Positions 3,356 through 47,803 of a stretch of 49,953 nt of DNA are shown piece by piece. The DNA is from Syntrophobacterales bacterium (GTDB taxonomy: Bacteria > Desulfobacterota > Desulfobaccia > Desulfobaccales > 0-14-0-80-60-11). Made by a program: the position numbers and the translations under genes. The notes under the pieces were generated by a model. The model was not told where the DNA came from. It ran no database searches and saw only the letters and a program-made list of their open reading frames with translations. Where the stretch lies: assembly GCA_023512475.1 (NCBI GenBank), contig JAILZL010000020.1, forward strand, positions 1 to 49,953. The letters run 5' to 3'. Numbering within the stretch: the first letter of the stretch is position 1; each line of letters begins with the position of its first letter.

Positions 3356-5665
3356 CTACGGCGTCGGCCAGTCTCCCCCGACCCGGCCCTCCCGCAGATC
3401 CCGGCGGTAGGCCTCCAGTTTTTCCTCCCATTCCGGCGTGTTGAGGGCGTTGTATTCCTCCTGGGACAGCCGCCCGCTCTTCAGGAGTCGCTCCCGGTAA
3501 ATGATGTCGATCTGCCGCTGCCGGGCCTCCTTTTCCCGGTGCAGCTCCTCCAGCCTGTGGTGTTTGCCCAGGGCCGCACCGGTCCCCTGGGCACCGGAGT
3601 CCACCGGTTCATTCATCACCCGGGTGATGCGGTCGTCATAGTCCCGCTCGATCTGAGCCTTCCGCTCCTCCCGCCATCTGCCCTTCTCCACTTTGGATTT
3701 TTCCGTGGCCGGATGGTAGGATGTGGGCGTGACCAGGGGGGAGACCTCCCCTGAGGATTCATATTGGAACAGGTTGTCCAATGCTTTGGGGTTCCACTTG
3801 GAGGAATGATGCCGGTTCAGGATGGAGAGGGCGGCATCGGGGTCTTCCCTGCCCAGCTCCAGGAGCCTTTGGTTTTCCTCCTGGAAGGAATGCCAGACAT
3901 TTTTCAGCCATTCCTTGTCCCGGGCCCTTTCCGTCGGTTCATTCTCCAGGGACTCCCTGTTGGTGTTGATTCTCCCCCACAGCAGGGTATGCATGAGCAG
4001 TAATTTTTCCGCGTCGTTTTCCCGTCTCTTGACCTCATCCCAGTCGCCGCGTTCCTTGGCTTTGTCCAGGGCCGCAGCCATTCTGGAAATTTTCCCCCCG
4101 ATGATCTCCATCCCCTCCTCGAGATGTTTCAGCCGCCGCTCGGCATCAGCCCGCCTGCGGTCATGCCACTTGTCCACGCCCATCTCCAGCTGCGTCACTT
4201 TCTGCTCCCACTGCTTTTCCAGGTCCAGGAGGCCCGTCACCACCCGGTCCCTCTTTTTCTCCGCTGCCCGGTCCCGGGTGGGGGCGGAGGCACCCGAGGG
4301 TTTCCCGGGCGGGGGAACTCCGGCCCCGGCCTGCACTCCACGGGTCACCCCGGCCCCGCCCCGGGAAACAGGAGGGCCGCCGGGCTCCGGCAGGACGGCG
4401 GGGGGACGGGTGTTGGTGTAGGGGTCGGAGGGGGTGCCGCTGCCCCTGATCCGGTCTCCGAAGGGCTTGGTGGCGTCGGGATAATCCCGGTAGGGGTCGG
4501 TGCGCGTCCCGCTCCCCCAGATGCGGTCCCCGAAAGGTTTGTTCACCTCCGGGTAGTCCCGGTAAGGATCAGAGGGGGTGCCGCTGCCCCAGTATGGTTT
4601 TTCCCCTGTCTTGACCCCCTTCTGGTCGTAGACCTTGAGCCTGCCGGTGGGCGGGGGTGGGCCGCCGGGACCGGGCGCCGTGACCACCCCGCCCCGGGAG
4701 GAAACCGGCGGCGGGCTTTGGGCAGGGGGGCTGACCGACCGGGAGGTGGAGCCGGCGGTCCCGCCGGAGGGCGGGGTGGGCCCGGCAGGGGTCTTTTTGG
4801 TCGCAGCCCCGGAGGCGCCGCCCCCGCCTTGCTGATACTTCTCCAGGAAGCCGATCTCCCGTCGGAGCTTTTCGATCTGGGCGTCCCGGTCCTTGACGAA
4901 GCGGCCGTTGCCTGAGGTGTAGTATTCCAGAGCCTCTTTGGCGGCTTTCAGGCGGCTGTAGGTTTCGGAGGGAGAGGCCGGGGGCTTGGGCCCGGAGGCC
5001 GGCGGGGACGCCCCGGCCCCGCCGGAGGCGGCAGGAGGCGGGGAGCCCTTGGCGCTGCCGGAGGCGGGGGCTCCCTTGGCCCCGGAGGGGTTCTGGGGCG
5101 CGGCCGGACCCGCCGCCGGAGGGGCGGCCTGTTGATAGCGCAGGGGCGGGGAGGACGGGGTTCCCGGGCCCCGGTGCGGCCCGGTGGGCCGGCGGACGCC
5201 CGGGGAGGAGCCCGGGGGCACGGCCGTCGTGGCCGGGGGTTTGGTGGGCGGAGGGGCCACGGCGGGAGCTCCCGGCGGACGGCCTGCCGGTCCCACGGCA
5301 CCGGAGGGCGCCAGGGAGCCCCGGGGCGGTGCGCCGCTCTGCTGAGGCGCTGGCGGCGGCGAGGCGGGTTGCCGGACCACCGGCGGCGCAGATAAGGACC
5401 GCGATGGCGGCGGGGTTTTCTGGCGTTCCTTCACCTGGGGCAGATTCCCCGGCTGGGCCTGCGTCGGCCCGGGCCCGCTGCGCTGCTGCTTTTGGGGCTC
5501 CCGGGTCTGGGGCACCGGCTGTGGCTGCTGGACCGGCTGCGAACCGGTTTGCGGCCGCACCGATGGCGTCTGCGGCGGCGGAACCTGGGCTCCGGCGGGA
5601 ACAAGCAGGAAAAAAATGCTCAGCGCCAACGCCACTCCTCCCCGCCACATCCCGGTTCCGCTCAT
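3356..5665 (-). CDS. Secreted proline-rich repeat protein with coiled-coil C-terminus, unknown function
   Basis: About 769 residues. The start at 5665 is chosen because GGAAGGAG lies 9 bases before it; an in-frame ATG at 5674 directly abuts that site. The N-terminus is a Sec-type signal peptide (basic, then GGVALALSIFFLLVPAGA). A very long Pro/Gly/Ala/Ser/Gln-rich disordered region follows. Three tandem repeats of about 22 residues carry the pattern GSGTxxDPYRDYPxxxKPFGDRI. The C-terminal third is charged and helical with coiled-coil character (KKRDRVV, ERRLKHLEEGME, KAKERGDWDEVKRREN). I do not recognise a catalytic domain. An exported structural or envelope-associated role is a guess. The reverse strand also holds long open frames here, a composition artefact. 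Confidence 0.7.
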   Translation of the reverse strand: MSGTGMWRGGVALALSIFFLLVPAGAQVPPPQTPSVRPQTGSQPVQQPQPVPQTREPQKQQRSGPGPTQAQPGNLPQVKERQKTPPPSRSLSAPPVVRQPASPPPAPQQSGAPPRGSLAPSGAVGPAGRPPGAPAVAPPPTKPPATTAVPPGSSPGVRRPTGPHRGPGTPSSPPLRYQQAAPPAAGPAAPQNPSGAKGAPASGSAKGSPPPAASGGAGASPPASGPKPPASPSETYSRLKAAKEALEYYTSGNGRFVKDRDAQIEKLRREIGFLEKYQQGGGGASGAATKKTPAGPTPPSGGTAGSTSRSVSPPAQSPPPVSSRGGVVTAPGPGGPPPPTGRLKVYDQKGVKTGEKPYWGSGTPSDPYRDYPEVNKPFGDRIWGSGTRTDPYRDYPDATKPFGDRIRGSGTPSDPYTNTRPPAVLPEPGGPPVSRGGAGVTRGVQAGAGVPPPGKPSGASAPTRDRAAEKKRDRVVTGLLDLEKQWEQKVTQLEMGVDKWHDRRRADAERRLKHLEEGMEIIGGKISRMAAALDKAKERGDWDEVKRRENDAEKLLLMHTLLWGRINTNRESLENEPTERARDKEWLKNVWHSFQEENQRLLELGREDPDAALSILNRHHSSKWNPKALDNLFQYESSGEVSPLVTPTSYHPATEKSKVEKGRWREERKAQIERDYDDRITRVMNEPVDSGAQGTGAALGKHHRLEELHREKEARQRQIDIIYRERLLKSGRLSQEEYNALNTPEWEEKLEAYRRDLREGRVGGDWPTP

Positions 5666-5800
5666 CTGTCCCATCTCCTTCCCGCCCTTGCCGGGATTAC
5701 CGCCGCAGGGGCCTTCTTACCCTTCGGTTCCCGCTTTAAGGAACTTTAAGCGGGCAAGTGCCACCCTACCTAAACACAGCTTGCCGCCGGGGTCAAGGGG

Positions 5801-7874: not shown

Positions 7875-8690
7875 ATGTGTCGCGATCGGAGCGTCTCTTT
7901 TCTCAATGAACTCGGCTACAATGTCATCGCATTGCCCCGGGAGCGCTTTGAGCCCCTCATGGTTCTGGGCGGTCCTCCGACGGGGCTCAGGTATCTGGGG
8001 GACCTGGGGGATCTGGTGACGGCCACGGGCCCCCCGCCCGACATCCAGCGGGATGATCCGGTCCCGGCCCTGGCCGGCCGCCGCAGCAACCGGCAGGAAT
8101 TGTCCCTGGGGGTGTCTTTCCTGGAGCGGCTCCTGGCCACCATGGGGTGGCAGGGGGGCTCCCTGTCGGTGGGCTTTCGGGAGGCGGCCTTCGTGCAGAT
8201 GGTCTATCTGGAAGTCCGCCACGATTTTGTCGCACCCTTGCGGGTGGGCACCTATTTGGCCGGCGCCCGGCCTCAGCCTCTGGCCCCGGAGATCTTCCGC
8301 CAATGCGAGGCGGTGGTGCTGGTCACCGACACCCTCAAGTCGACCTGCTTCGGCGTGGCGGCTTATGACCGCCGGGAGCAGGCCCTTGAGCTGCGGGCGG
8401 AGGCCATCCAGGAGCTTCTGGGGGCCGAGGCCGGCATCCGGGTCTCCGCCTCCGGGGAGGGCTATCTCGTGTTCCAGGGCCCGCGACCACTGCGTTTCGG
8501 CTTCCGGGGCCTGGGGCTGGCGTTGTCGGAGGATCACTCCCGCCTGCAGCTCAACCTGAGAGAGGATCTGGCGGGCGCCCTGGCCAGGGGAATTCAGGAG
8601 GCCCCCCGGGACCTGCCGCCGGAGGTCTATGAAGTGCCCCGGGTGGGGGAACTGCTGGAGGTGCAGTTCGATCTTCCGGAGCGCTCCTGA
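7875..8690 (+). CDS. Bacterial gasdermin (bGSDM), membrane pore-forming protein
   Basis: A 271-residue protein that fits the bacterial gasdermin family in length and pattern. It starts MCRDRSVSFLNELGYNVIAL with Cys2, the position palmitoylated in characterised bacterial gasdermins, and continues with LPRERFEPL. Later hallmarks are an alternating strand/helix core (YLEVRHDFVAPLRVGTYLAG, VVLVTDTLKSTCFGV) and LRFGFRGLGLALSED near residue 205. Known family members are held inactive by a short C-terminal segment. Cleavage by a partner protease lets the N-terminal part assemble into large inner-membrane pores that kill the cell. The gene is followed with a TGATG overlap by a caspase-fold protease, the classic bGSDM arrangement. 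The exact cleavage site is not visible to me. Confidence 0.8.
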   Translation: MCRDRSVSFLNELGYNVIALPRERFEPLMVLGGPPTGLRYLGDLGDLVTATGPPPDIQRDDPVPALAGRRSNRQELSLGVSFLERLLATMGWQGGSLSVGFREAAFVQMVYLEVRHDFVAPLRVGTYLAGARPQPLAPEIFRQCEAVVLVTDTLKSTCFGVAAYDRREQALELRAEAIQELLGAEAGIRVSASGEGYLVFQGPRPLRFGFRGLGLALSEDHSRLQLNLREDLAGALARGIQEAPRDLPPEVYEVPRVGELLEVQFDLPERS

Positions 8691-10060
8691 TGCTCCTCGA
8701 CCTGGACAATCCCTACCGGGGAGGCGCCCCGGCCCGCCTGCGGCTGACGGCAGAGGATTTCACCTGCCGCCTTTCCTCCCGCAACCGGGAGGCCCTGGGA
8801 CGGCCGGTGTCGTGGTCGGTGCTGGCCTACCTGGCGGCGGACTGCGACCTGGCGGAGTGCCTGTTCGACAACCTGACGGAGATGAAGGCAGTGGGCTCCG
8901 GGCCCGACCTGCACCTGATGGCCCTCTTTGACGGCCCCCTCCTCACCGACGCCTTCTTCGCCCGGCTTAACCCCGACACCCGGCTCCGGGAGGACCTCCT
9001 GGTCCGCTATGGGGAGCTGGAAACCCACAAGCCCGAGGTCCTCACCCTCGCCCTGCATCTGGCGGGGCTCTACCCCGGGAAGAGGCGGGCGCTGTTTTTA
9101 GGGGGCCACGGCCAGGGCTGGCGGGGGGCCCTTCTGGATGAGAACCGGGGCCTGAACCGTCACCGCCAGGATCCGGCCTGGCTGGACCTGCCGGGAACCT
9201 ATGAGGAGTGCTTCGGGCGTCTGCTGGCATGCAACCGTCAGGTTCAGGAAGACCTCAACCGCCACCTCCCGGCACCCGCCCCGGCCGGGCCCCTGGACGT
9301 TCTCGCCTTTGACGCCTGCTTTATGGGCAATATTGAGGCCGTGGCCACCCTGGCGGAGCAGGCCCATTTTCTGGTGGTGACCGAGAATCAGATGCCCGGC
9401 CAGGGCTATCCCTATCACCGGGTGCTCACCGGCCTGGCGCGGGAGCCGGAGCTGACGGCGGAGGAGTTCTGTCGCCGCCTGGTGCAGGAGACCAAGGACC
9501 GCTACTCCTCCCCCCGGGCCCGGCCCTCCCCGGTGACCCAGGTGGCCCTCCGGGCCGGCCGGCTGCCGGAGGTGATCGCCACCTTCCGCCGTCTGGTGCA
9601 GGAGCTCGTTCCCCTCCTGGACACGGACGCCGCCATCCGCCGGGCCACCCGGTATGCCCTGGAGATGGCGTGGCCTCTCCCCGAAACCGACAGCGTGGAT
9701 CTGAAGGACCTGGTGCTGAAACTGCTGGATTGTCCCCTCCCGCAGGAGATCCGGCGGGGCGCCCAGGCTTTTCTGGAAGCCTGGTCGGCCCTGGTGCTGA
9801 GCGGCTCCCCCCCGGAGGAGAGCGGCGGCCGTCACGGGCTGGCCATCTACGCCCCCCGGCCGGAGAGATTTGACCCCGCCTATCTTTCTCTGGCCAACAC
9901 CCTCCCCTTGGGTCTCGGCTGCTGGAGCTGGTTTCTGGCCCGGCATTACTTGCAGGTGCTGGGGCAGGAGGCTCCCCGGCACCCCCTGCTGCAGGCCATC
10001 CGGCGCACGAGGGAGGAGATGATCCGGCAGGGGCTGTACCCGTCGCCGAAAGATATCTGA
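8690..10060 (+). CDS. Clostripain-like (C11) caspase-fold cysteine protease, gasdermin partner
   Basis: A 456-residue clan CD protease. The first strand has the C11 pattern WSVLAYLAADCDL followed by NLTEMKAVGS. The catalytic His is in FLGGHGQGWRG (H140) and the catalytic Cys in LAFDACFMGNIEAV (C210), followed by TENQMPGQGYPY, a typical C11 segment. The rest is helical and may sense the trigger or hold the zymogen. The ATG shares one base with the gasdermin stop (TGATG), so translation is coupled and stoichiometry tied. In characterised systems the neighbouring protease cuts the C-terminal tail of gasdermin. Nothing in the sequence tells what activates this one; no separate sensor domain or signal peptide was recognised. 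Confidence 0.85.
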   Translation: MLLDLDNPYRGGAPARLRLTAEDFTCRLSSRNREALGRPVSWSVLAYLAADCDLAECLFDNLTEMKAVGSGPDLHLMALFDGPLLTDAFFARLNPDTRLREDLLVRYGELETHKPEVLTLALHLAGLYPGKRRALFLGGHGQGWRGALLDENRGLNRHRQDPAWLDLPGTYEECFGRLLACNRQVQEDLNRHLPAPAPAGPLDVLAFDACFMGNIEAVATLAEQAHFLVVTENQMPGQGYPYHRVLTGLAREPELTAEEFCRRLVQETKDRYSSPRARPSPVTQVALRAGRLPEVIATFRRLVQELVPLLDTDAAIRRATRYALEMAWPLPETDSVDLKDLVLKLLDCPLPQEIRRGAQAFLEAWSALVLSGSPPEESGGRHGLAIYAPRPERFDPAYLSLANTLPLGLGCWSWFLARHYLQVLGQEAPRHPLLQAIRRTREEMIRQGLYPSPKDI

Positions 10061-10078
10061 CAAGGAGGCTTCACGGAG

Positions 10079-10645
10079 ATGGATGTGTGGATGGGAGTGG
10101 CGGCAGTGCTGGTGGGCGGGGTGAGCTGTTTTTACGGCTACCCCCTGTTCCGCCTGCTCCTGGTGCTGGCGGGTCTGATTGTGGGCTACGGCCTCGGTCA
10201 GCTCCTGGTGCAGAGCGGACACCCTTGGGTGTCTTTGGCCATCGGGGTGGTGGCCGCGGTGCTCCTGGCCGTGCTGGCCTACCCCCTATGGAGCCTGGGA
10301 GTGGCCCTGAGCGGGGGCGCCCTGGGGTTTCTCATCCTCAGCGCCCTGGCGGCCGCGGCGGAGGCCTCCCAGGGGGTCAGCCTGATCGCCGGCCTTCTGG
10401 GAGCCCTGATTCTGGGCGGGCTTTTTTACCACCTGCGGGATCTCCTGGTGATGCTGACCACCGCGGTGAACGGGGCCCTGGAGGTGGTCCTGGGGGTGGG
10501 CTGGCTGGTCCCTTCCCTGGCTGTGCGGCGGGGGCCGTCCGCCTGGCTGTGGGTGGCGGCCGTGGCGGTGCTGGCGGCGGTGGGCTTTGCCGTGCAGTAC
10601 GGCATGTTCAAGGATCGCCGCACTTACTCCCGAAACTCCACCTGA
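10079..10645 (+). CDS. Small multi-TM membrane protein, DUF4203 (TMEM198)-like, third gene of gasdermin operon
   Basis: A 188-residue, strongly hydrophobic protein with about six or seven membrane segments and glycine-rich helices (GGVSCFYGYPLFRLLLVLAG, GLIVGYGLGQLL). The layout resembles DUF4203/TMEM198-type proteins; this assignment is tentative. The start ATG has AAGGAGG 10 bases upstream. The gene begins 18 bases after the protease stop on the same strand, so it is very likely co-transcribed with gasdermin and protease. A membrane protein fits a pore-forming system as membrane sensor, immunity or pore modulator, but it could be an unrelated passenger. The next gene is convergent, stopping 6 bases away, so the operon ends here. 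Confidence 0.65.
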   Translation: MDVWMGVAAVLVGGVSCFYGYPLFRLLLVLAGLIVGYGLGQLLVQSGHPWVSLAIGVVAAVLLAVLAYPLWSLGVALSGGALGFLILSALAAAAEASQGVSLIAGLLGALILGGLFYHLRDLLVMLTTAVNGALEVVLGVGWLVPSLAVRRGPSAWLWVAAVAVLAAVGFAVQYGMFKDRRTYSRNST

Positions 10646-39689: not shown

Positions 39690-39796
39690 CCGCAGCTCCG
39701 GCGCCGGGGCCGAGCCCGATTCCCACACCCACCTCCCCTCAACGGAATCGGGAGGCGATGCGGCCTCCGGGCCGGGCTTCCCACCCACCTCCTGCC

Positions 39797-39825
39797 TTGC
39801 CAACGGCTGGCGGCGCCGCTATAAT
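39797..39825 (+). promoter_or_regulatory. Strong sigma70-type promoter of tRNA-Ser (GCT)
   Basis: TTGCCA (39797-39802), 17-base spacer and TATAAT (39820-39825), nearly full consensus. The mature tRNA begins 11 bases after the -10. Confidence 0.85.
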
Positions 39826-39836
39826 AAATGAGACGC

Positions 39837-39929
39837 GGAGAGATGACCGAGTAGGCCTAAGGTGCTCGCCTGCTAAGCGAGTGTGGGGGGAAACTCCCAC
39901 CGAGGGTTCGAATCCCTCTCTCTCCGCCA
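39837..39929 (+). tRNA. tRNA-Ser (GCT)
   Basis: Acceptor GGAGAGA pairs with TCTCTCC; anticodon stem CTCGC/GCGAG with loop CTGCTAA (anticodon GCT); long variable arm GTGTGGGGGGAAACTCCCAC; GTTCGAATC T-loop; encoded CCA at 39927-39929. Confidence 0.95.
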
Positions 39930-39948
39930 TCTCTTTTTGGGGATCACG

Positions 39949-40149
39949 GTGGATTACAGCCCGCTGGGACAGCTGGTGGCCTTGGCCGGTTTGCTCCTGC
40001 TTCTGGTGGTGAACCTCACCCGGGGCCATCTGCGCCGGCAGCGCCGGCCCTCCCGGGGCCTGCTCCTCCTGCATCAGTGGGGCAGTCTCGCCGCCTTCGC
40101 CCTCATCTTCATCGGCTTGGGGCTGATGTGGCTCCGGAAAGCCCCCTGA
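39949..40149 (+). CDS. Small two-TM membrane protein (66 aa), unknown
   Basis: Starts at GTG 39949, 20 bases after tRNA-Ser(GCT), possibly on the same transcript. Two hydrophobic helices (LVALAGLLLLLVVNL, LAAFALIFIGLGLMWL) flank a basic loop (GHLRRQRRPSRG). No family recognised. Coding status rests on the hydrophobic pattern and clean ends and is moderately sure. Confidence 0.5.
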   Translation: MDYSPLGQLVALAGLLLLLVVNLTRGHLRRQRRPSRGLLLLHQWGSLAAFALIFIGLGLMWLRKAP

Positions 40150-40228
40150 GGGCGCCCCGCAGCGGGCAGGTCGAGGCGGGGGATGGGCCATGGCCCCCTG
40201 AGCCCTGGGCGCGGGCCGGAGGTGAGGG

Positions 40229-40254
40229 GCCTGACCCTTGTATAAGGGTCAGGC
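40229..40254. repeat. Perfect 11-bp stem-loop in intergenic DNA
   Basis: GCCTGACCCTT (40229-40239), loop GTAT, AAGGGTCAGGC (40244-40254). No T-run follows on either strand. It lies about 80 bases after the small membrane protein gene and 230 before the YHS protein gene. Confidence 0.7.
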
Positions 40255-40483
40255 AGAGCCCTGGACCGGAAGCCCTGGCTTTTGATAAGGCCCCGGCGAG
40301 CGGCCCAAGCAATACCGGCTCCACCCGGACCGCCCCAAAAGATGAGACCCGGGTCGCTTGGCGATCCCGGGCCTCGGTTGGAGGGGTCAGAGGACTTGCC
40401 CTCTTCATCGGCAGCCATCCTCTTTTCCTAAACTGAATGAGCCATTTTTTTTCCAAAGACGCGTTTTTTTTCCGAGGTTGGTC

Positions 40484-40765
40484 ATGACCCGCTTCTTCCG
40501 GCTTCTCCTGCTCCCTTTGCTCCTGTGGACGGCCCTCTCCCTGCCGGCTGCGGCCTCAGAGCCGCCCGCCGGCGGCCGGCCCCAGACCCTGTGTCCGGTG
40601 ATGGGGGCCCCCATCAATCGGGAGATCTATGTGGACTACCAGGGCCGGCGCATTTATTTCTGCTGCGCCGCCTGCATCGACCTGTTCAAAAAGAACCCGG
40701 AGAAGTATCTCCAGGAGATGAACCAGGCGGGGGTCACCCCGGAAAAGGCCCCTGCCGGCAAATGA
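40484..40765 (+). CDS. Secreted YHS/TRASH-like metal-binding protein
   Basis: A 93-residue protein with a signal peptide (MTRFFRLLLLPLLLWTALSLPAAA). A compact domain follows: CPVMGAPINREIYVDYQGRRIYFCCAACIDLFKKNPEKYL. Cys37 and the C60-C61-x2-C64 cluster are the YHS-type pattern, associated with copper or other soft-metal binding. Export suggests a periplasmic metal chaperone or sensor role; no partner transporter is adjacent. The T-rich stretch just upstream (40445-40470) may hold its promoter. Confidence 0.8.
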   Translation: MTRFFRLLLLPLLLWTALSLPAAASEPPAGGRPQTLCPVMGAPINREIYVDYQGRRIYFCCAACIDLFKKNPEKYLQEMNQAGVTPEKAPAGK

Positions 40766-40800
40766 GGCCGCGGGACCACCCGCAGCCGGCCCCGGGCCCT

Positions 40801-41190
40801 TCAGTCCTCAGGGAGGGCCCTTCCCTGACGGTGCTTCAGGAGGCGGGCCACCACCTCCTTGAGGGCACTGGGATCCTCCCCCTTTTCCAGCCGGGTGGCC
40901 GCAGGCAACGGGAGGTCCGGGGCCTCCTCCCGGAGCATGTAGAGGATCAAAGGCACGGCGGGAGGGTGTTCCTGGAAGTGGGCCAGCTCCACCAGGTCTT
41001 CCAGATAGGGAAGATCCGGGTCCAAAATGAGCATGTCCGGCGGGTCCGGGCTCTTCAGCCGCTGCCAGACCTCATGGCCGTCCCAGGCCTCCGCCACCTC
41101 ATAGCCTTCCGCGGTCAATTCCCGCCGGAGGAGATCCCGCACATGCCGGTTGCGATCGGCCACCAGAATTTTCCAGGCTCTGGGCACCAT
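40801..41190 (-). CDS. Stand-alone response-regulator receiver domain
   Basis: A 129-residue CheY-like protein: VPRAWKILVADRNRHVRDLL at the N-terminus (Asp12), phosphoacceptor Asp57 in DMLILDPDLPYLED, and conserved Lys103 in RLEKGEDPSAL. The usual Thr/Ser after strand four is not obvious (LILYMLREE), so signalling may be altered. There is no output domain and no adjacent histidine kinase. GGAGG sits only one base before the ATG, so the true start may be the next codon (GTG at 41187). It converges on the YHS gene. Confidence 0.75.
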   Translation of the reverse strand: MVPRAWKILVADRNRHVRDLLRRELTAEGYEVAEAWDGHEVWQRLKSPDPPDMLILDPDLPYLEDLVELAHFQEHPPAVPLILYMLREEAPDLPLPAATRLEKGEDPSALKEVVARLLKHRQGRALPED

Positions 41191-41395
41191 GCCTCCGGGG
41201 TGCGTGACGCACGGGGTCAGGGGGACCGGCGAGGGAACCTCGCGCTGCCCGCCCTCCTATGGAACCGCTCCCCTTTATGCAACCGGAGTGCCAGAGGCAG
41301 GCCGTAGGGCGCCGACCTCCGGCCCGGGGGCCGGAGCCTGGTGGTGACCCCCCGACTGTCCGGATTTTTTACAGTCTGTCAAGGATGTTCTCACC

Positions 41396-42313
41396 ATGCC
41401 CCTTGCATCCCCGCCCCGTTTCCCCGATTTTCAGCCCCTCTCCCTGGACCACCGGGACCTGATTCAGCCCCGGCTGTGGGCCTATCAGCCGGAGACGTCG
41501 GAGCTCACCTTCACCAATCTCTTCATCTGGCGGCGGCCCCATGGCCTTCGGTGGTCTCTGGAAGGCGACCATCTTCTCCTCCTCAGCCGGGAGCCGTCCG
41601 GGGCGGTGTGCGCCTGGCCGCCGGTGGGTCCTCCGCCCCGCCTGCCGGTGGTGCGCCGCCTTTTTGAGTGGCTGCGGGAGGAGCAGGGGCAAGCGGCGCC
41701 CCGTCTTGAGCGGGCCGACCCCCGGCTGGCGGCGGAACTGGCCGCGGCTCCGGAATTCCAGGTGTCGCCGGCACGGGAGCATTTCGACTACCTCTATGCC
41801 ACCGCCGACCTCATCCAGCTGGCCGGCCGCCGTTTCCATGACAAACGCAATCATGTCAACGCCTTCCGGCGGGCCCACCGCTTCCGCTATGAGCCGCTGG
41901 AGGAGCGCCACCTGCCGGCCTGCCGGGAGCTGGCCGAAGCCTGGTGCCGCCTCCGGCGCTGTGAGGAAGACCTGAGCCTGGCCGGGGAATGGGAGGCGGT
42001 CCGGGAAGCCTTGGCACACTTCCCCGACCTGAGGCTGAGCGGCGGGGTGATCCTTCTCGAGGGCCGGGTGGTCGCCTTCACCCTGGGGGAACTCCTCAAC
42101 CGGGACACCGTGGTGATCCACATTGAAAAGGCCGACCCGGAGCTGAAAGGCGCCTATGCGGTCATCAACCAGCAGTTCCTGGAGCACGCCTGGGCCCAGG
42201 TCCCCTTCGTCAACCGGGAGCAGGACCTGGGCGAGTCGGGTCTGAGGACCGCCAAGCTCTCCTACAACCCGGTGCGCCTGGTGGAGAAATTCCAAGTGAA
42301 ATTAAAGGATTAG
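41396..42313 (+). CDS. DUF2156 (phosphatidylglycerol lysyltransferase-like) domain protein
   Basis: A 305-residue soluble protein with the two GNAT-like halves of the DUF2156/LPG synthase C-terminal fold. Typical segments are SELTFTNLFIWRR near residue 38, LAGRRFHDKRNHVNAFRR near residue 145, FTLGELLNRDTVVIHIEKA near residue 225, and VNREQDLGESGLRTAKLSYNPVRLVEKF at the end. There are no membrane helices, unlike MprF, so the acceptor may not be a lipid. The family may use aminoacyl-tRNA; the activity here is unknown. Confidence 0.8.
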   Translation: MPLASPPRFPDFQPLSLDHRDLIQPRLWAYQPETSELTFTNLFIWRRPHGLRWSLEGDHLLLLSREPSGAVCAWPPVGPPPRLPVVRRLFEWLREEQGQAAPRLERADPRLAAELAAAPEFQVSPAREHFDYLYATADLIQLAGRRFHDKRNHVNAFRRAHRFRYEPLEERHLPACRELAEAWCRLRRCEEDLSLAGEWEAVREALAHFPDLRLSGGVILLEGRVVAFTLGELLNRDTVVIHIEKADPELKGAYAVINQQFLEHAWAQVPFVNREQDLGESGLRTAKLSYNPVRLVEKFQVKLKD

Positions 42314-42349
42314 CCAGGCGGGGAGGACCGGGGCGTGAGGAGGTTGTTG

Positions 42350-42470
42350 AAAAATGATTCGGGGAAGGGGGCCAGGGGTTACAGGCCCCTGCCCTCCCCC
42401 GGGACTTCCCCAACCCCATAAATGGGATGTAGTCTCGTACGGCTGGCAAAATCGGCCAGTCTCATGCCGC
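42350..42470 (+). repeat. Dispersed stem-loop repeat, copy B
   Basis: Begins GAAAAATGATTCGGGGAAGG, contains a 6-bp stem CAGGGG (42373-42378) / CCCCTG (42386-42391), and ends with TGGCAAAATCGGCCAGTCTC, closely matching 39116-39222. It lies in the 42314-42719 spacer, which holds no convincing gene. Confidence 0.65.
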
Positions 42471-42719
42471 CGGATTCCTGATAAGGGTGATTGTCAACCG
42501 CCTGCCAGGGAGGCCCTGTGAGGCCGTTTTGGCCGCCTTGGGGGAGCGGACCGGGGGAGGTGCCCCGTCCCCTCCCCCAAGCCACGTTCCTGATTGCGGG
42601 AAAGGGCGGGGAGGGATACCGCGGGCCCCCTCTTAGCCCTCCCCTCAGCAGCAGGGGTGGCGGGGCATCAGGCGCCGCCCACCCCGTCCCCCCTCCCTGC
42701 CCGGGTGGTGCGCCCCGGG

Positions 42720-44183
42720 TCACGGAAGAGGCCGCGGTTCTGCCCCCAGGGCGTCGTAGTCGATGATGCCGGTGCCGGAGACAAAGTAGCTGCGGCAGGC
42801 CTCCTCCAGCTGTTCGGGGGTGAGTTCCGGGGTGATCTTGAGAAAGCGGGCCCGGTCGAGGAGGTTGTCCACCAGATCCCGGGGATGGCAGGCGTTCATG
42901 GGCCGGGAGGCATAGACCGTGCGCATCATCTGCCGCACCGCCTCCAGGTTGAAGGCCAGATTCTGCTGGGCGCACACCCGCCTGAAGATTTCCAGGTACT
43001 GCTCCTCCTCCACATGGCCCACATAGATCTTGTGGCGGATGCGCCGGAGGAAGGCCGGGTCCGCCAGGCCCTGGGGGTCCAGGTTGGTGGCGAAGATCAC
43101 CAGCTGGTCGAAGGGCACGGCAAATTGCTGGCCGGTATTGAGGGTGAGGAAGTCCTGCCGGGTCTCCAAGGGGTACATCCAGCGGTTCAGCAGATGGCGG
43201 GGGGAGATTTTCTGGCGCCCGAAATCATCGATGAGGAACACCCCGTTGTTGGCCCGGAGCTGGTGCGGCGCCTCGTAATACCGCAGCACCGGATTGAAGC
43301 GCAGTTCCAGGGAGTCCTCCGTCATTTCGCCCCCGGCGATGACCAGGGGCCGCCGGCACAGCACCCAGCGGCGGTCCTGGCGCCGGACGTCATGGGCAGG
43401 CGGCACCGGGTGATGGTTCACCTCATCGAAGATGCGGATGATCTGCCCGTAGACATAGAGGGCGTAGGGCACAAAGACCGGGTCATCGAAGGCGTCGCCC
43501 ACCGCCTTGGCCAGGACCGTCTTGCCGCTGCCGGTGGGGCCGTACAGGAAGAGGGAGCGGCCGCTGGACACCGCCGGCCCCAGCTTGTGGATGAAGTCGT
43601 CGGTCAGGACATAATCCGCCAGCACCTCCCGGAGCCGGGGTTCATCCACGGTCACCTGCTGGATGGTCTGATATTCCACCCAGTCCCAGTAGTCCTCCAG
43701 GGGCACCGGCGCCGGCCCCACATAGCTGTTGTGCTCCAGTTCGGCCTCCGCCTTGCGTCGGCCGGACTCGCTCAGCACATAGCGCAGCTCCACCGCCAGG
43801 TGGGTGACCTCGGGCCGGATCAGGTCCCGGGGCTTGACATCCAGATACTTCTGCCCCTTGAGGTACTCAATGAGCTGCTCCACCAGGGGCTCAGGGATCT
43901 TCAAGGCCTCGGCCATCTCCCGGGAGGTGATCACCTCCCGGTGGTAGGCATGTTTGAGGAACAGCGCGGCCAGCAGCGGCTCCGGCACCCCCAGCTCCCG
44001 GAAGCTTTGCGGCTCCGGGGGGAAGGGCGGAAGCAGGCTTTTCAGCTCTTCCGGGGTCACGAGATTCAGCTCCAGGAGGTGTTTGGCCAGAAAACCCCGC
44101 TGGCGTTTCTGGCGGGCCAAGGCCAGTCCCAGCTGTTCCGGGGTGAGGATCTTTGCCTGCAGGAGTCGCTGTGCCAGATTCAT
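42720..44183 (-). CDS. AAA+ ATPase with type II secretion ATPase N-like domain
   Basis: A 487-residue protein. Residues 1-60 (MNLAQRLLQAKILTPEQLGL ... GFLAKHLLELNLVTPEELKS) resemble the GspE N/MshEN-like module that binds c-di-GMP in some ATPases. A winged-helix-like region follows (VITSREMAEALKIPEPLVEQ). The AAA+ core has Walker [19 protein letters not shown] and Walker B NNGVFLIDDFGRQKISP, and sensor ATNLDP. The core belongs to a MoxR/RuvB-like group seen in delta-proteobacteria; the function is unknown. It is alone on its strand, with an unusual direct repeat upstream. Confidence 0.75.
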   Translation of the reverse strand: MNLAQRLLQAKILTPEQLGLALARQKRQRGFLAKHLLELNLVTPEELKSLLPPFPPEPQSFRELGVPEPLLAALFLKHAYHREVITSREMAEALKIPEPLVEQLIEYLKGQKYLDVKPRDLIRPEVTHLAVELRYVLSESGRRKAEAELEHNSYVGPAPVPLEDYWDWVEYQTIQQVTVDEPRLREVLADYVLTDDFIHKLGPAVSSGRSLFLYGPTGSGKTVLAKAVGDAFDDPVFVPYALYVYGQIIRIFDEVNHHPVPPAHDVRRQDRRWVLCRRPLVIAGGEMTEDSLELRFNPVLRYYEAPHQLRANNGVFLIDDFGRQKISPRHLLNRWMYPLETRQDFLTLNTGQQFAVPFDQLVIFATNLDPQGLADPAFLRRIRHKIYVGHVEEEQYLEIFRRVCAQQNLAFNLEAVRQMMRTVYASRPMNACHPRDLVDNLLDRARFLKITPELTPEQLEEACRSYFVSGTGIIDYDALGAEPRPLP

Positions 44184-44221
44184 GGTGTCACCCGTCCTGT
44201 AGAGTCCAGGGCGTAAAAGAG

Positions 44222-44321
44222 GAAGCCCCCCTCGTGAGGTCGTCGGTTACGGTGTGTAGATTGCAAACCATCGAATGGCATCTCGGGGAAGCGCCCCCCG
44301 TGAGGTCCCTCGGTGACGGTT
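44222..44321 (-). repeat. Imperfect direct repeat upstream of the AAA+ ATPase gene
   Basis: About 32 bases at 44222-44253 recur at 44288-44321: GAAGC-CCCC-CGTGAGGTC-TCGGT-ACGGT with few mismatches. The copies are 66 bases apart, just before the ATPase start (minus strand), where a regulator could bind. Confidence 0.55.
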
Positions 44322-44417
44322 CCGGAGCCGGGACGATTTTTGACCCCTCCTGCACCCCTCCTGCCCAGGGCCTTCCGCGAACACGGCCCTTCGTATCCTT
44401 CCCTATCACAAAAACGC

Positions 44418-45260
44418 TTAAAAATCCACGGCCTGATCGTCGTGCCGCGCCGGCGGCCCCTCGGGCCGGGGCGCGGCCTCATCGTCGGGGCTCAGCCCCG
44501 CCGCCGCCAAGCGGGTTTTCACATACCAGTCGATCTGGCGGCAGATGCCTTTCACCACCTGGGTCTCCCGGGCCCGCAATCCCAATCGGTTGAAGAAACG
44601 CCGAACATTAAACATCCAGTAATCCGGATTCTGGTGGCCGATGTAGTGGATCTTCACCAGGGTGTCTTTGAGCATGGCATACATGGATTCCAGTTCCTGG
44701 ACGTTGGCCAGCCGGGGGACGAAGCGGGGTTCCGGGTGATGGGCGGTGAAGACCTCATAGGCCAGCACCATGACCGCCTGGGCCAGGTTGAGGGAGGAGC
44801 AGGCGGCGGTGGGGATGGTCACCAGGGCCTGGCAGAGGGCCAGCTCCTCGTTGGTGAGGCCCCAGTTCTCCGGCCCGAACAGGAGCGCCACGTCGTTGTG
44901 CCGGCTGAGCTCCACCACCCGGAGGGCCATCTCCCGGGGCGTGAGGAATTCCTTCCGCAGGCCGCCCCGGCGGGCGGTGGTGCCCACCACATACTGGAAG
45001 GGGGCCAGGGCCTGGGCCAGGTCGTCATGGACCTGCATGGCCTCCAGCACCGGGACGGCCGCCTGGGTGGCCATCATGCGCATCCGGGCCGGGTCCAGGC
45101 TGTGGGGCTTGACCACCACCAGCCGGGTGAGGCCCATGTTGCAGGCCGCCCGGGCCGCGGCGCCGATGTTTTCCGGCAGTTTCGGCCGATGCAGGACAAT
45201 CGCCACCCTGTCCAGGCGGACCTGCTCCTCGGATCTACGGGGCGTACGGGGCGCGTTCAT
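44418..45260 (-). CDS. TrmJ-like tRNA/rRNA 2'-O-methyltransferase (SPOUT)
   Basis: A 280-residue SPOUT methyltransferase, from the ATG at 45260. All three TrmH/TrmJ motifs are visible: RPKLPENIGAAARAACNMG, VALLFGPENWGLTNEEL and AACSSLNLAQAVMVLAYEVF. TrmJ methylates the 2'-OH of nucleotide 32 in tRNAs. The extra C-terminal helical region of about 80 residues agrees with TrmJ length. A much longer open frame runs upstream to 46430 but is antisense to slp and the Mth938 gene, so it is rejected. A TATGAT-like -10 lies about 25 bases upstream. Confidence 0.88.
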   Translation of the reverse strand: MNAPRTPRRSEEQVRLDRVAIVLHRPKLPENIGAAARAACNMGLTRLVVVKPHSLDPARMRMMATQAAVPVLEAMQVHDDLAQALAPFQYVVGTTARRGGLRKEFLTPREMALRVVELSRHNDVALLFGPENWGLTNEELALCQALVTIPTAACSSLNLAQAVMVLAYEVFTAHHPEPRFVPRLANVQELESMYAMLKDTLVKIHYIGHQNPDYWMFNVRRFFNRLGLRARETQVVKGICRQIDWYVKTRLAAAGLSPDDEAAPRPEGPPARHDDQAVDF

Positions 45261-45542
45261 CTCGCATTCTAATGTATCATAAAAAAAGAAATTGCTGACG
45301 CGGCCGGCATGGCGGTGGCGAGGGCCCGCCGGAGGAATTATGGTTTTATCAGACCGAGGCTTCGGAAAGGGGTTTGGGGGCGTCTCCTCCGGCCGGGGAT
45401 GGACTTGCTGGCCCCAGGCCGGAGGGCGCCGGTCGCCGGGCCCGCTACCGGGTTCTCCGGAGGGACGATTCCACTCCCCACCTTCCCAGAGCCCCACGCC
45501 CGCCTGCCGGCGGCCGCCTCCCGGGCTCGGAAAGAGATTCCC

Positions 45543-46067
45543 ATGGCGAGAAGATTCCTGGCGCTCCTTTTCCTGTGGATGGGGCTGGGCGCCTGTGCCC
45601 CGGCCCCGGTGGTGGGCCCCCCGCCGGGACTTCCCCCCGGCGGTCTGACGGCCCTGTTGGCTGACCCCCAGGCCTTCCGGGGGCAGGAGGTGCGCCTGGG
45701 CGGCGAGATCCTGTCCCTCACCTTTCCGGAGGGTAAAAGCCTGCTGACCATCCGCCACCGGGAGCTGGACACCCGAGGCCAGCCCAGCGGTGTAACCAGC
45801 GGCTACACCTTCCTGGCGGAAAGCCAGCGCTTCCTTTCCCCCAGCCATTACCTGGTGGGGCGGCAGGTGACGGTCCAGGGGCCGGTGGCGGGCAGCCGGG
45901 ACGGCCAGCTCCTGCTTCAGGCCAGGGATCTGAAGCTGGGGGATTACCCCCGCTGGGAAAAATATTATTACCCGGTGCCCCGGGAGTGGTATGATGGGGA
46001 CCCGGCGCTGGAACACTGGTTCACGCCGCCCCATTTCGATCCCTGGTACGGCGGCCACGGCCGCTGA
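45543..46067 (+). CDS. Slp-family outer membrane lipoprotein
   Basis: A 174-residue lipoprotein: signal peptide MARRFLALLFLWMGLGAC with the lipobox cysteine at residue 18, then the Slp-like core (LLADPQAFRGQEVRLGGEIL, SPSHYLVGRQVTVQGPVAG). It ends in the aromatic tail (YYYPVPREWYDGDP). Slp proteins are outer membrane lipoproteins induced by starvation or stress in E. coli; the function is poorly defined. The ATG at 45543 is chosen because the signal peptide starts there. The next gene follows after 33 bases. Confidence 0.8.
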   Translation: MARRFLALLFLWMGLGACAPAPVVGPPPGLPPGGLTALLADPQAFRGQEVRLGGEILSLTFPEGKSLLTIRHRELDTRGQPSGVTSGYTFLAESQRFLSPSHYLVGRQVTVQGPVAGSRDGQLLLQARDLKLGDYPRWEKYYYPVPREWYDGDPALEHWFTPPHFDPWYGGHGR

Positions 46068-46100
46068 CGAGCCGGAAAGGAGAAAGGGCATCCGGCCAAG

Positions 46101-46442
46101 ATGCGCATTGACAGCTATGATTTTGGGCACATCGTTATCGACGGGGTCTCCTACCGCCAGGACGTGCTCCTGTGGCCCGGGGGCTTGAATTCCACCTGGT
46201 GGCGGCGCCATTCCCATCTGTTGGTGCTGGAGGATGTGGCCGAGGCCCTGGCTGCCGGGCCGGAGGTGCTGGTGGTGGGCCAGGGCCAGCCCGGCAGGAT
46301 GGCCGTGGACCCGGCCTTGGCTGCTTACCTCCGGGAGCGGGGCATCGAGCTGGTGGCCCTGCCCACCCGGGAGGCCTGCCGGGTGATTAACTCTCTGGCC
46401 GGCAAACGCCGCGTGGCGGCGGCGTTGCACCTCACCTGCTGA
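46101..46442 (+). CDS. Mth938-domain (DUF498/AAMDC-like) protein
   Basis: A 113-residue single-domain protein of the Mth938 family. Features are the N-terminal strand IDSYDFGHIVIDG, the DVLLWPGGLNSTWWRR segment, PEVLVVGQGQPGRM near residue 57 and a C-terminal HLTC. The eukaryotic relatives (NDUFAF3, AAMDC) act in respiratory complex I assembly or metabolism; the bacterial role is unknown. Its stop overlaps the next ATG by one base (TGATG), suggesting a shared operon with the CDP-alcohol transferase. Confidence 0.85.
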   Translation: MRIDSYDFGHIVIDGVSYRQDVLLWPGGLNSTWWRRHSHLLVLEDVAEALAAGPEVLVVGQGQPGRMAVDPALAAYLRERGIELVALPTREACRVINSLAGKRRVAAALHLTC

Positions 46443-47803
46443 TGGCTCCCCCGGCCCCTGGCGGTGGGGAGCCCGGCACCCCGGCCCGGAGCGCCCTGAT
46501 CCTGGTGGCCCCGGACCCGCCCCCGGGGCTCTCCCCCTGGCATCTGCTCAGGGTGGCGGGAGTGCCGCATCTGGAGCGCCTGGTCCTCTCCTGCTGGCAG
46601 GTGGGGATCCCCCGGGTTTACCTTCTGGCCCCCCCCGGGCTCCAGCCGGTCCTGGAGGCGTCTGTGGCCCGGCTGGGCCGGCGTCAGGGGGGCACGGTGG
46701 AGCTCGCCCCGGACTGGGCGGCCCTGGAAAACCCCAGACCCGGCTCCTGGCTGGTCCTCACCGCCGAGCAGGTGCCCTCCCCGGCCCTCCTGGCCCGTCT
46801 GGCCCGGCAGCCCCTGGCCCCGGGCGAGGCCGCAGTGGTGTGCACCGACGATCCGGCCTGGCCGGGGGATGCCCCTCCTCACCTGCCCGCCCTCACTGCC
46901 CGCCTGGAAGGATCCGGTCTCCCGGGCTGGCGGGCGGTGGGTCTGGCCCATCTGTCGCCCGAGGCCTGGCAGGAGTGGCATCGCTGGCGGCGGGAAACCC
47001 AGCGGCCCCGGAAATGCCGGCCCAGTCCGGCGGCCCTGTTGGAGGCCGGCCTGAGGCACCTGGAGGACAACCGCCGCCTGGTGGCCGTGGCCGCGGAGCC
47101 CTTCTCTCTCACCCGACTGGGGCGACCGGAAGACCCGGAGCTGGCGACCCGCCGGCTGGCGGCGGATCTGAGGGGCTCCCCCTGGGGGGAGGGGTGGCTG
47201 GAATCCTCCCTCAACCGCCGGCTGGCCCGGGCCCTCCTCCCCCGGGTGGCCCTCTGGCCGCTGCTTCCCACCCAGATCACCCTGGTGCACCTCGCCTTGG
47301 GGCTGCTGGCGGCCCTGCTCTTTGTGGAGGGCACCTACCTGAGCACGGTGGCCGGGGCGCTGTTGCTGCCGGTGGTGGTGGTGCTGGACTGCCTGGACGG
47401 CCTCCTGGCCCGCCTCACCTTTCGGGAGACCCGCCTGGGACAATTCCTCGACCTGTATGGCGACACCCTCCTCAATCTGGTGATTTTTCTGAGCATCGCC
47501 GCGGGATTATACCGGGTGAGGGGCCAGGTGCTGTACCTCGTCCTGCTGCTGCCTCTGGCCACCGGCTATGGCTTATGCTGGTGGCTGACGGATCCCCTGC
47601 GGCTGCGTCTCCGGAGCCTCAGCGCCCCGGCCCTCGCCGCCCCGGGCCCGGTGGTGACGGAGCTGGCCAGCCGGGATTTCGTCTATCTGATCCTCCTTTT
47701 TGCCCTTTTCGGCCGCCTGGACTGGTTTGTCATCGGGGTGGCCTTGGGCAGCCACCTGGTGGCGTTCATGATCAGCTCCCTGTCCGGCAGAATATCCCAA
47801 TGA
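46442..47803 (+). CDS. Nucleotidyltransferase-like and CDP-alcohol phosphatidyltransferase fusion
   Basis: A 453-residue protein. The C-terminal half (about residues 260-453) is a membrane CDP-alcohol phosphatidyltransferase with the complete motif DxxDGxxARx8Gx3Dx3D, seen as DCLDGLLARL ... GQFLDLYGD, plus about six transmembrane helices. The N-terminal half has the layout of a GT-A-type nucleotidyltransferase (ALILVAPDPP, VGIPRVYLLAPPG) but lacks the GxGxR loop, so it may be inactive. The fusion resembles archaeal/thermophile cytidylyltransferase-DIPP synthases for inositol phosphate solutes or lipids; the product here is unknown. Translation is coupled to the Mth938 gene. Confidence 0.8.
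   Translation: MAPPAPGGGEPGTPARSALILVAPDPPPGLSPWHLLRVAGVPHLERLVLSCWQVGIPRVYLLAPPGLQPVLEASVARLGRRQGGTVELAPDWAALENPRPGSWLVLTAEQVPSPALLARLARQPLAPGEAAVVCTDDPAWPGDAPPHLPALTARLEGSGLPGWRAVGLAHLSPEAWQEWHRWRRETQRPRKCRPSPAALLEAGLRHLEDNRRLVAVAAEPFSLTRLGRPEDPELATRRLAADLRGSPWGEGWLESSLNRRLARALLPRVALWPLLPTQITLVHLALGLLAALLFVEGTYLSTVAGALLLPVVVVLDCLDGLLARLTFRETRLGQFLDLYGDTLLNLVIFLSIAAGLYRVRGQVLYLVLLLPLATGYGLCWWLTDPLRLRLRSLSAPALAAPGPVVTELASRDFVYLILLFALFGRLDWFVIGVALGSHLVAFMISSLSGRISQ

Follow-up and report, generated by a model that had tools for sequence, protein, structure and literature searches.

The window analysed here, a 49,953-nucleotide stretch of a Syntrophobacterales contig, carries three consecutive forward-strand ORFs encoding a bacterial gasdermin (bGSDM; 7875–8690, 271 aa), a Peptidase_C11 protease of the clostripain family with a clan CD caspase fold (8690–10060, 456 aa) and a TM7S3/TM198-like membrane protein (10079–10645, 188 aa; Pfam PF13886, E value 1.2e-8), all at the positions given in the original prediction. 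The first two genes overlap by one base in a TGATG junction (TGA at 8688–8690, ATG from 8690), and the third follows the protease gene after an 18-base gap (10061–10078); both the overlap and the spacing were as claimed. Orthologues of these ORFs in two sister species display 62–82 % identity and dN/dS ratios of 0.17–0.40, indicating that they are real genes rather than chance reading frames. Neither a sigma-70-like promoter on the coding strand nor a terminator was found, a result of little weight in this organism.

The assignment of the 271-aa protein as a gasdermin was borne out by several independent comparisons. It matched the PADLOC bGSDM profile over nearly its whole length (E value 2.2e-56), scored 149 bits against NCBIfam NF051890 (prok_gasdermin; curated cut-off 100) and retrieved three solved bGSDMs from Vitiosangium and Bradyrhizobium in a phmmer search (E values 5e-28 for PDB 7n51, 1e-27 for 8sl0 and 9e-4), while a Pfam search returned no match. 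The closest solved gasdermin is that of Vitiosangium sp. (PDB 7n51, 8sl0, 9a84), which is also the best Foldseek match, although it is only ~29 % identical to the window protein. The sequence matches to solved bGSDMs span residues 1–243 and cover the fold of the pore domain (approximately residues 1–216), which is followed by a linker and a putative inhibitory tail (approximately residues 217–271). The fold comparison proposed with the original prediction was run using an AlphaFold model built from a four-sequence alignment (mean pLDDT 50, low confidence); the top eight Foldseek hits were all bGSDMs, as were all seven hits with an E value of 0.001 or below, and no non-bGSDM structure lay near the model. 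We therefore regard 7875–8690 as confirmed to encode a true bacterial gasdermin, which by membership of this family would be expected to form pores and to be toxic. Its orthologues are 270–271 aa long and have a short C-terminal tail with a conserved motif; an alignment of the three species revealed no large C-terminal domain. The predicted N-terminal Cys2 is indeed present and is kept in both sister species as well; it is a candidate palmitoylation site.

The second ORF encodes a C11 protease, as claimed. The protein matches Pfam PF03415 (E value 2.8e-22, 80.2 bits, cut-off 25.8) and solved C11 structures in the PDB (6n9j, 6nag, 5dyn/4yec). The His140 (GGHGQGW) and Asp208-Ala-Cys210 (FDAC) positions align with the corresponding catalytic motifs (HG.GW, FDAC) in C11 enzymes of solved structure, and H140, D208 and C210 are invariant across the C11 orthologues of the three species, in agreement with the His140/Cys210 dyad of the original prediction. 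The clostripain equivalog TIGR02806 returned only 16.8 bits against a cut-off of 550, so the protein is related to clostripain without being that enzyme. These data identify 8690–10060 as encoding a caspase-fold Peptidase_C11 protease with intact catalytic residues. Basic residues are present between His140 and Cys210, where a zymogen might be processed into light and heavy chains. The AlphaFold model of the protein is of too low confidence (mean pLDDT 44) to serve as a query for structure searches. It is the only C11 protease encoded in its genome. Most C11 relatives in the phylum have an export signal or a lipoprotein-like start, whereas no hydrophobic stretch or export signal was found at the N-terminus of this protease or its two orthologues, and it should therefore stay in the cytosol alongside the gasdermin.

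In each of the three species sampled from the genus (G000, G001 and G002), the gasdermin and protease genes adjoin each other in an unchanged order, and among 29 genomes of the order both are confined to these species. Across the order the two genes are present together or absent, one further genome (G016) having just a distant, exported C11 protein. Both sister species retain the order gasdermin–C11–TM198, followed downstream by a convergent UPF0182 gene. Protein identity between the window and the sisters is 63 % for the gasdermin, 67–70 % for the protease, 79–81 % for the TM198-like protein and 91 % for UPF0182, with dN/dS ratios of 0.29–0.40, 0.26–0.33, 0.17–0.27 and 0.11–0.13, respectively. 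The pair thus evolves fast (several times the rate of UPF0182 at the protein level), yet purifying selection acts on both genes. Speed alone is no proof of an arms race, since a TPR gene nearby is equally fast.

The bGSDM profile returned five matches, four of them clear, over 395 genomes of the phylum, and no further bGSDM–C11 pair was present among them; a scan of genome contigs likewise recovered such pairs in the sister species only. One clear match (G077) is a lone gasdermin that lacks Cys2 and has no protease beside it. A weakly scoring match in G244 (L039, 6432–7952; E value 1.4e-8) was set aside as a gasdermin; this 506-aa, probably exported protein could be a very divergent pore-former. 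The cytosolic C11 proteins of two other genomes have no gasdermin adjoining: these related proteins without a signal peptide (L087, 7013–8368, in G052; L088, 2557–3843, in G334) have large or unknown proteins as neighbours. Searches of phages, plasmids and viral contigs yielded no bGSDM relative of this kind, and we rejected mobile carriage of the pair on this basis.

The original prediction counted the membrane protein as a member of the module, and this did not hold up. A TM198-like gene occurs in 11/29 genomes of the order, and in eight of them it stands in unrelated, varied surroundings in genomes with neither a bGSDM nor this C11 protease, on which ground we rejected it as part of the system. 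A three-gene arrangement, in which the TM198-like protein would, e.g., anchor the protease or the pore, act as their sensor or restrain them, could be argued from the common gene order in three species, from the tight spacing (18 bases here, 13 in the sisters) and from a dN that is raised relative to UPF0182. The free-standing copies speak against it, as does the slower evolution of the protein within the genus (79–81 % identity, against 63–70 % for gasdermin and protease), and we consider it unlikely. The gene is better described as a resident neighbour that is probably co-transcribed with the pair.

A type III CRISPR locus had been predicted nearby, and the module was placed with it in a small defence region. 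The window does encode a Csx1/Csm6-type CARF-HEPN protein at 1344–2645 (PADLOC E value 9e-111; TIGR02221 above cut-off), but no CRISPR array was found in it. The protein at 1–780, beside the Csx1/Csm6-type gene, matched no family, and the remainder of the locus is out of sight because the contig begins at base 1 of the window. On the reverse strand, 3356–5674 encodes a 772-aa proline-rich protein with no Pfam match, within which a 72-base tandem repeat is present in three copies (4418–4590). Neither sister genome returned a Csx1 match. Their gasdermin genes lie among housekeeping genes next to tRNA-Ser(GCT), with no CRISPR genes adjacent, and in both, collinearity with the window begins at the gasdermin (approximately 7881–7896 of the window). 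The block upstream of the gasdermin in the sisters corresponds to window positions 39795–47757 inverted, starting beside tRNA-Ser(GCT). The simplest reading is an inversion of ~32 kb (7881–39795) relative to the two sisters, one breakpoint lying directly upstream of the gasdermin and the other next to the tRNA-Ser(GCT) gene (39837–39929). Since the linkage to Csx1 is not conserved and the sister loci adjoin housekeeping genes, we rejected a defence island, and the argument from a defence region falls; the identification of the pair is unharmed.

The same observations bear on whether the pair acts as a signalled effector of a type III CRISPR system, with Csx1 5 kb away. The Csx1-type gene is encoded in the same genome, and caspase-fold proteases under CRISPR control are described elsewhere (Craspase, PMC9729208). 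However, searches with Pfam, PADLOC and NCBIfam profiles detected no CARF or SAVED domain in either protein, the sisters carry the pair without a Csx1 match and away from CRISPR genes, and the collinear block ends at the start of the gasdermin, all of which makes such a role highly improbable.

In known bGSDMs, a short C-terminal peptide keeps the protein inactive, the N-terminal Cys is mostly palmitoylated and activation comes from an adjacent protease that cleaves behind a Leu or Arg ~20 residues short of the C terminus (PMC9612521; PMC10989679). In C11 enzymes, an Asp stands two positions ahead of the catalytic Cys, and Arg/Lys is preferred at P1 (PMC10315481); globupain, a C11 enzyme, prefers Arg at this position, its best substrate being Boc-QAR (PMC10315481). 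The linker of all three gasdermins holds a residue that is basic throughout (LAR239|G in the window, RAK|A and RAR|G in the sisters), and outside the last strand no other position of the linker has that property. This A-(R/K)-(G/A) site lies 29–32 residues before the C-terminal end in the three orthologues, and the tail past it keeps a G-(E/Q)-LL-(E/D) motif that is also present in a distant bGSDM. In the window, the predicted activation site is at the Arg239 codon (8589–8591, forward strand; LAR239|G240), where a cut would leave a 32-residue C-terminal tail. The specificity of C11 enzymes fits the conserved basic site, and this match, drawn from sequence, is the main mechanistic inference of our analysis.

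We propose, with a probability of roughly three in four, that the gasdermin and the C11 protease form a two-gene death module. The gasdermin would be made inactive, its pore domain held shut by the C-terminal tail and its Cys2 probably bearing a lipid, while the adjacent cytosolic protease would be a zymogen. Once triggered, the protease would cut the gasdermin linker after Arg239 (A-R|G) and release the tail, and the freed pore domains would come together as large inner-membrane pores. The cell would then die or stop growing, most plausibly aborting phage infection, a purpose suggested by analogy with the gasdermin family. Several observations count against this reading. The predicted tail of 29–32 residues is longer than the ~20 of known bGSDMs; the tail of the window gasdermin contains further basic residues, e.g. 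Arg245 and Arg256; the pairing was seen in one genus only, and the phylum's one other clear bGSDM (G077) lacks an adjacent protease; in the sister species the locus does not lie in a defence island; and confidence was low for the AlphaFold models of both proteins (mean pLDDT 50 and 44).

Rather than phage defence, the pair might serve a physiological or stress-linked programme of death or permeabilisation, with the C11 zymogen itself answering to calcium or envelope damage. Its locus is a resident chromosomal one, common to the genus and set between housekeeping genes, searches of phages, plasmids and viral contigs did not recover it, and certain C11 zymogens mature only with Ca2+ under reducing conditions (PMC10315481). 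On the other hand, the pair evolves faster than most flanking genes, it is rare (4 clear cases in 395 phylum genomes) and another bGSDM operon has been shown to be anti-phage (PMC9612521), all of which fit immunity better; a physiological role seems doubtful to us. Calcium or envelope damage as the trigger of the zymogen is possible but speculative. Maturation of clostripain and globupain needs calcium and reducing conditions, whereas PmC11 activates without calcium (PMC10315481). No sensor domain is visible in the gasdermin or the protease, and we entertain only tentatively a minimal, sensor-less pyroptosis switch in which the C11 zymogen, of a protease family new to gasdermins, would itself be the sensor, e.g. 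of calcium entering across a breached envelope, and would directly cut the gasdermin after Arg239.

The death module we favour resembles the bGSDM system of Runella zeae (Johnson et al. 2022), as described in PMC9612521 and PMC10989679, in combining a short bGSDM that has an N-terminal Cys and a C-terminal tail with a directly adjacent clan CD (caspase-fold) protease in one operon. It differs in that the protease belongs to family C11 (clostripain) and not to C14 or CHAT, and in that the cut is predicted after Arg/Lys, whereas in R. zeae it follows Leu. With clostripain, PmC11 and globupain, the window protease shares the His/Cys dyad, the HG.GW and FDAC motifs and an Arg/Lys-type S1 aspartate; however, clostripain is a secreted enzyme and globupain carries a signal peptide, whereas the protein described here lacks an export signal and is encoded alongside a gasdermin.

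A bGSDM with a protease is a known kind of system, and the C11 partner appears to be new. The partner proteases named in a review are C14/CHAT caspase-like, Peptidase U49 and trypsin-like enzymes (PMC9612521), and none of the papers covered by our literature search, to which the primary reports (Science 2022, Nature 2024) did not belong, links gasdermins to Peptidase C11; a C11 partner may already appear in a supplement. The pairing would extend the set of gasdermin-driving caspase-fold proteases to clostripain-type enzymes. The triggers of bGSDMs are an open question (PMC9612521), and a partner from a family of Arg/Lys-specific, sometimes calcium-activated zymogens whose biochemistry is well known would make both trigger and cut directly testable, with the paired loci of three species serving as natural variants for protease–substrate matching.

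Finally, a gasdermin-like protein annotated as hypothetical is encoded on the Gloeothece verrucosa plasmid Cy782201 (827013–827969; 6001–6957 of locus L071). No protease is annotated within the stretch shown; the gene is followed by one for a 360-aa predicted membrane protein, and a RAMP CRISPR gene lies ~5 kb away.
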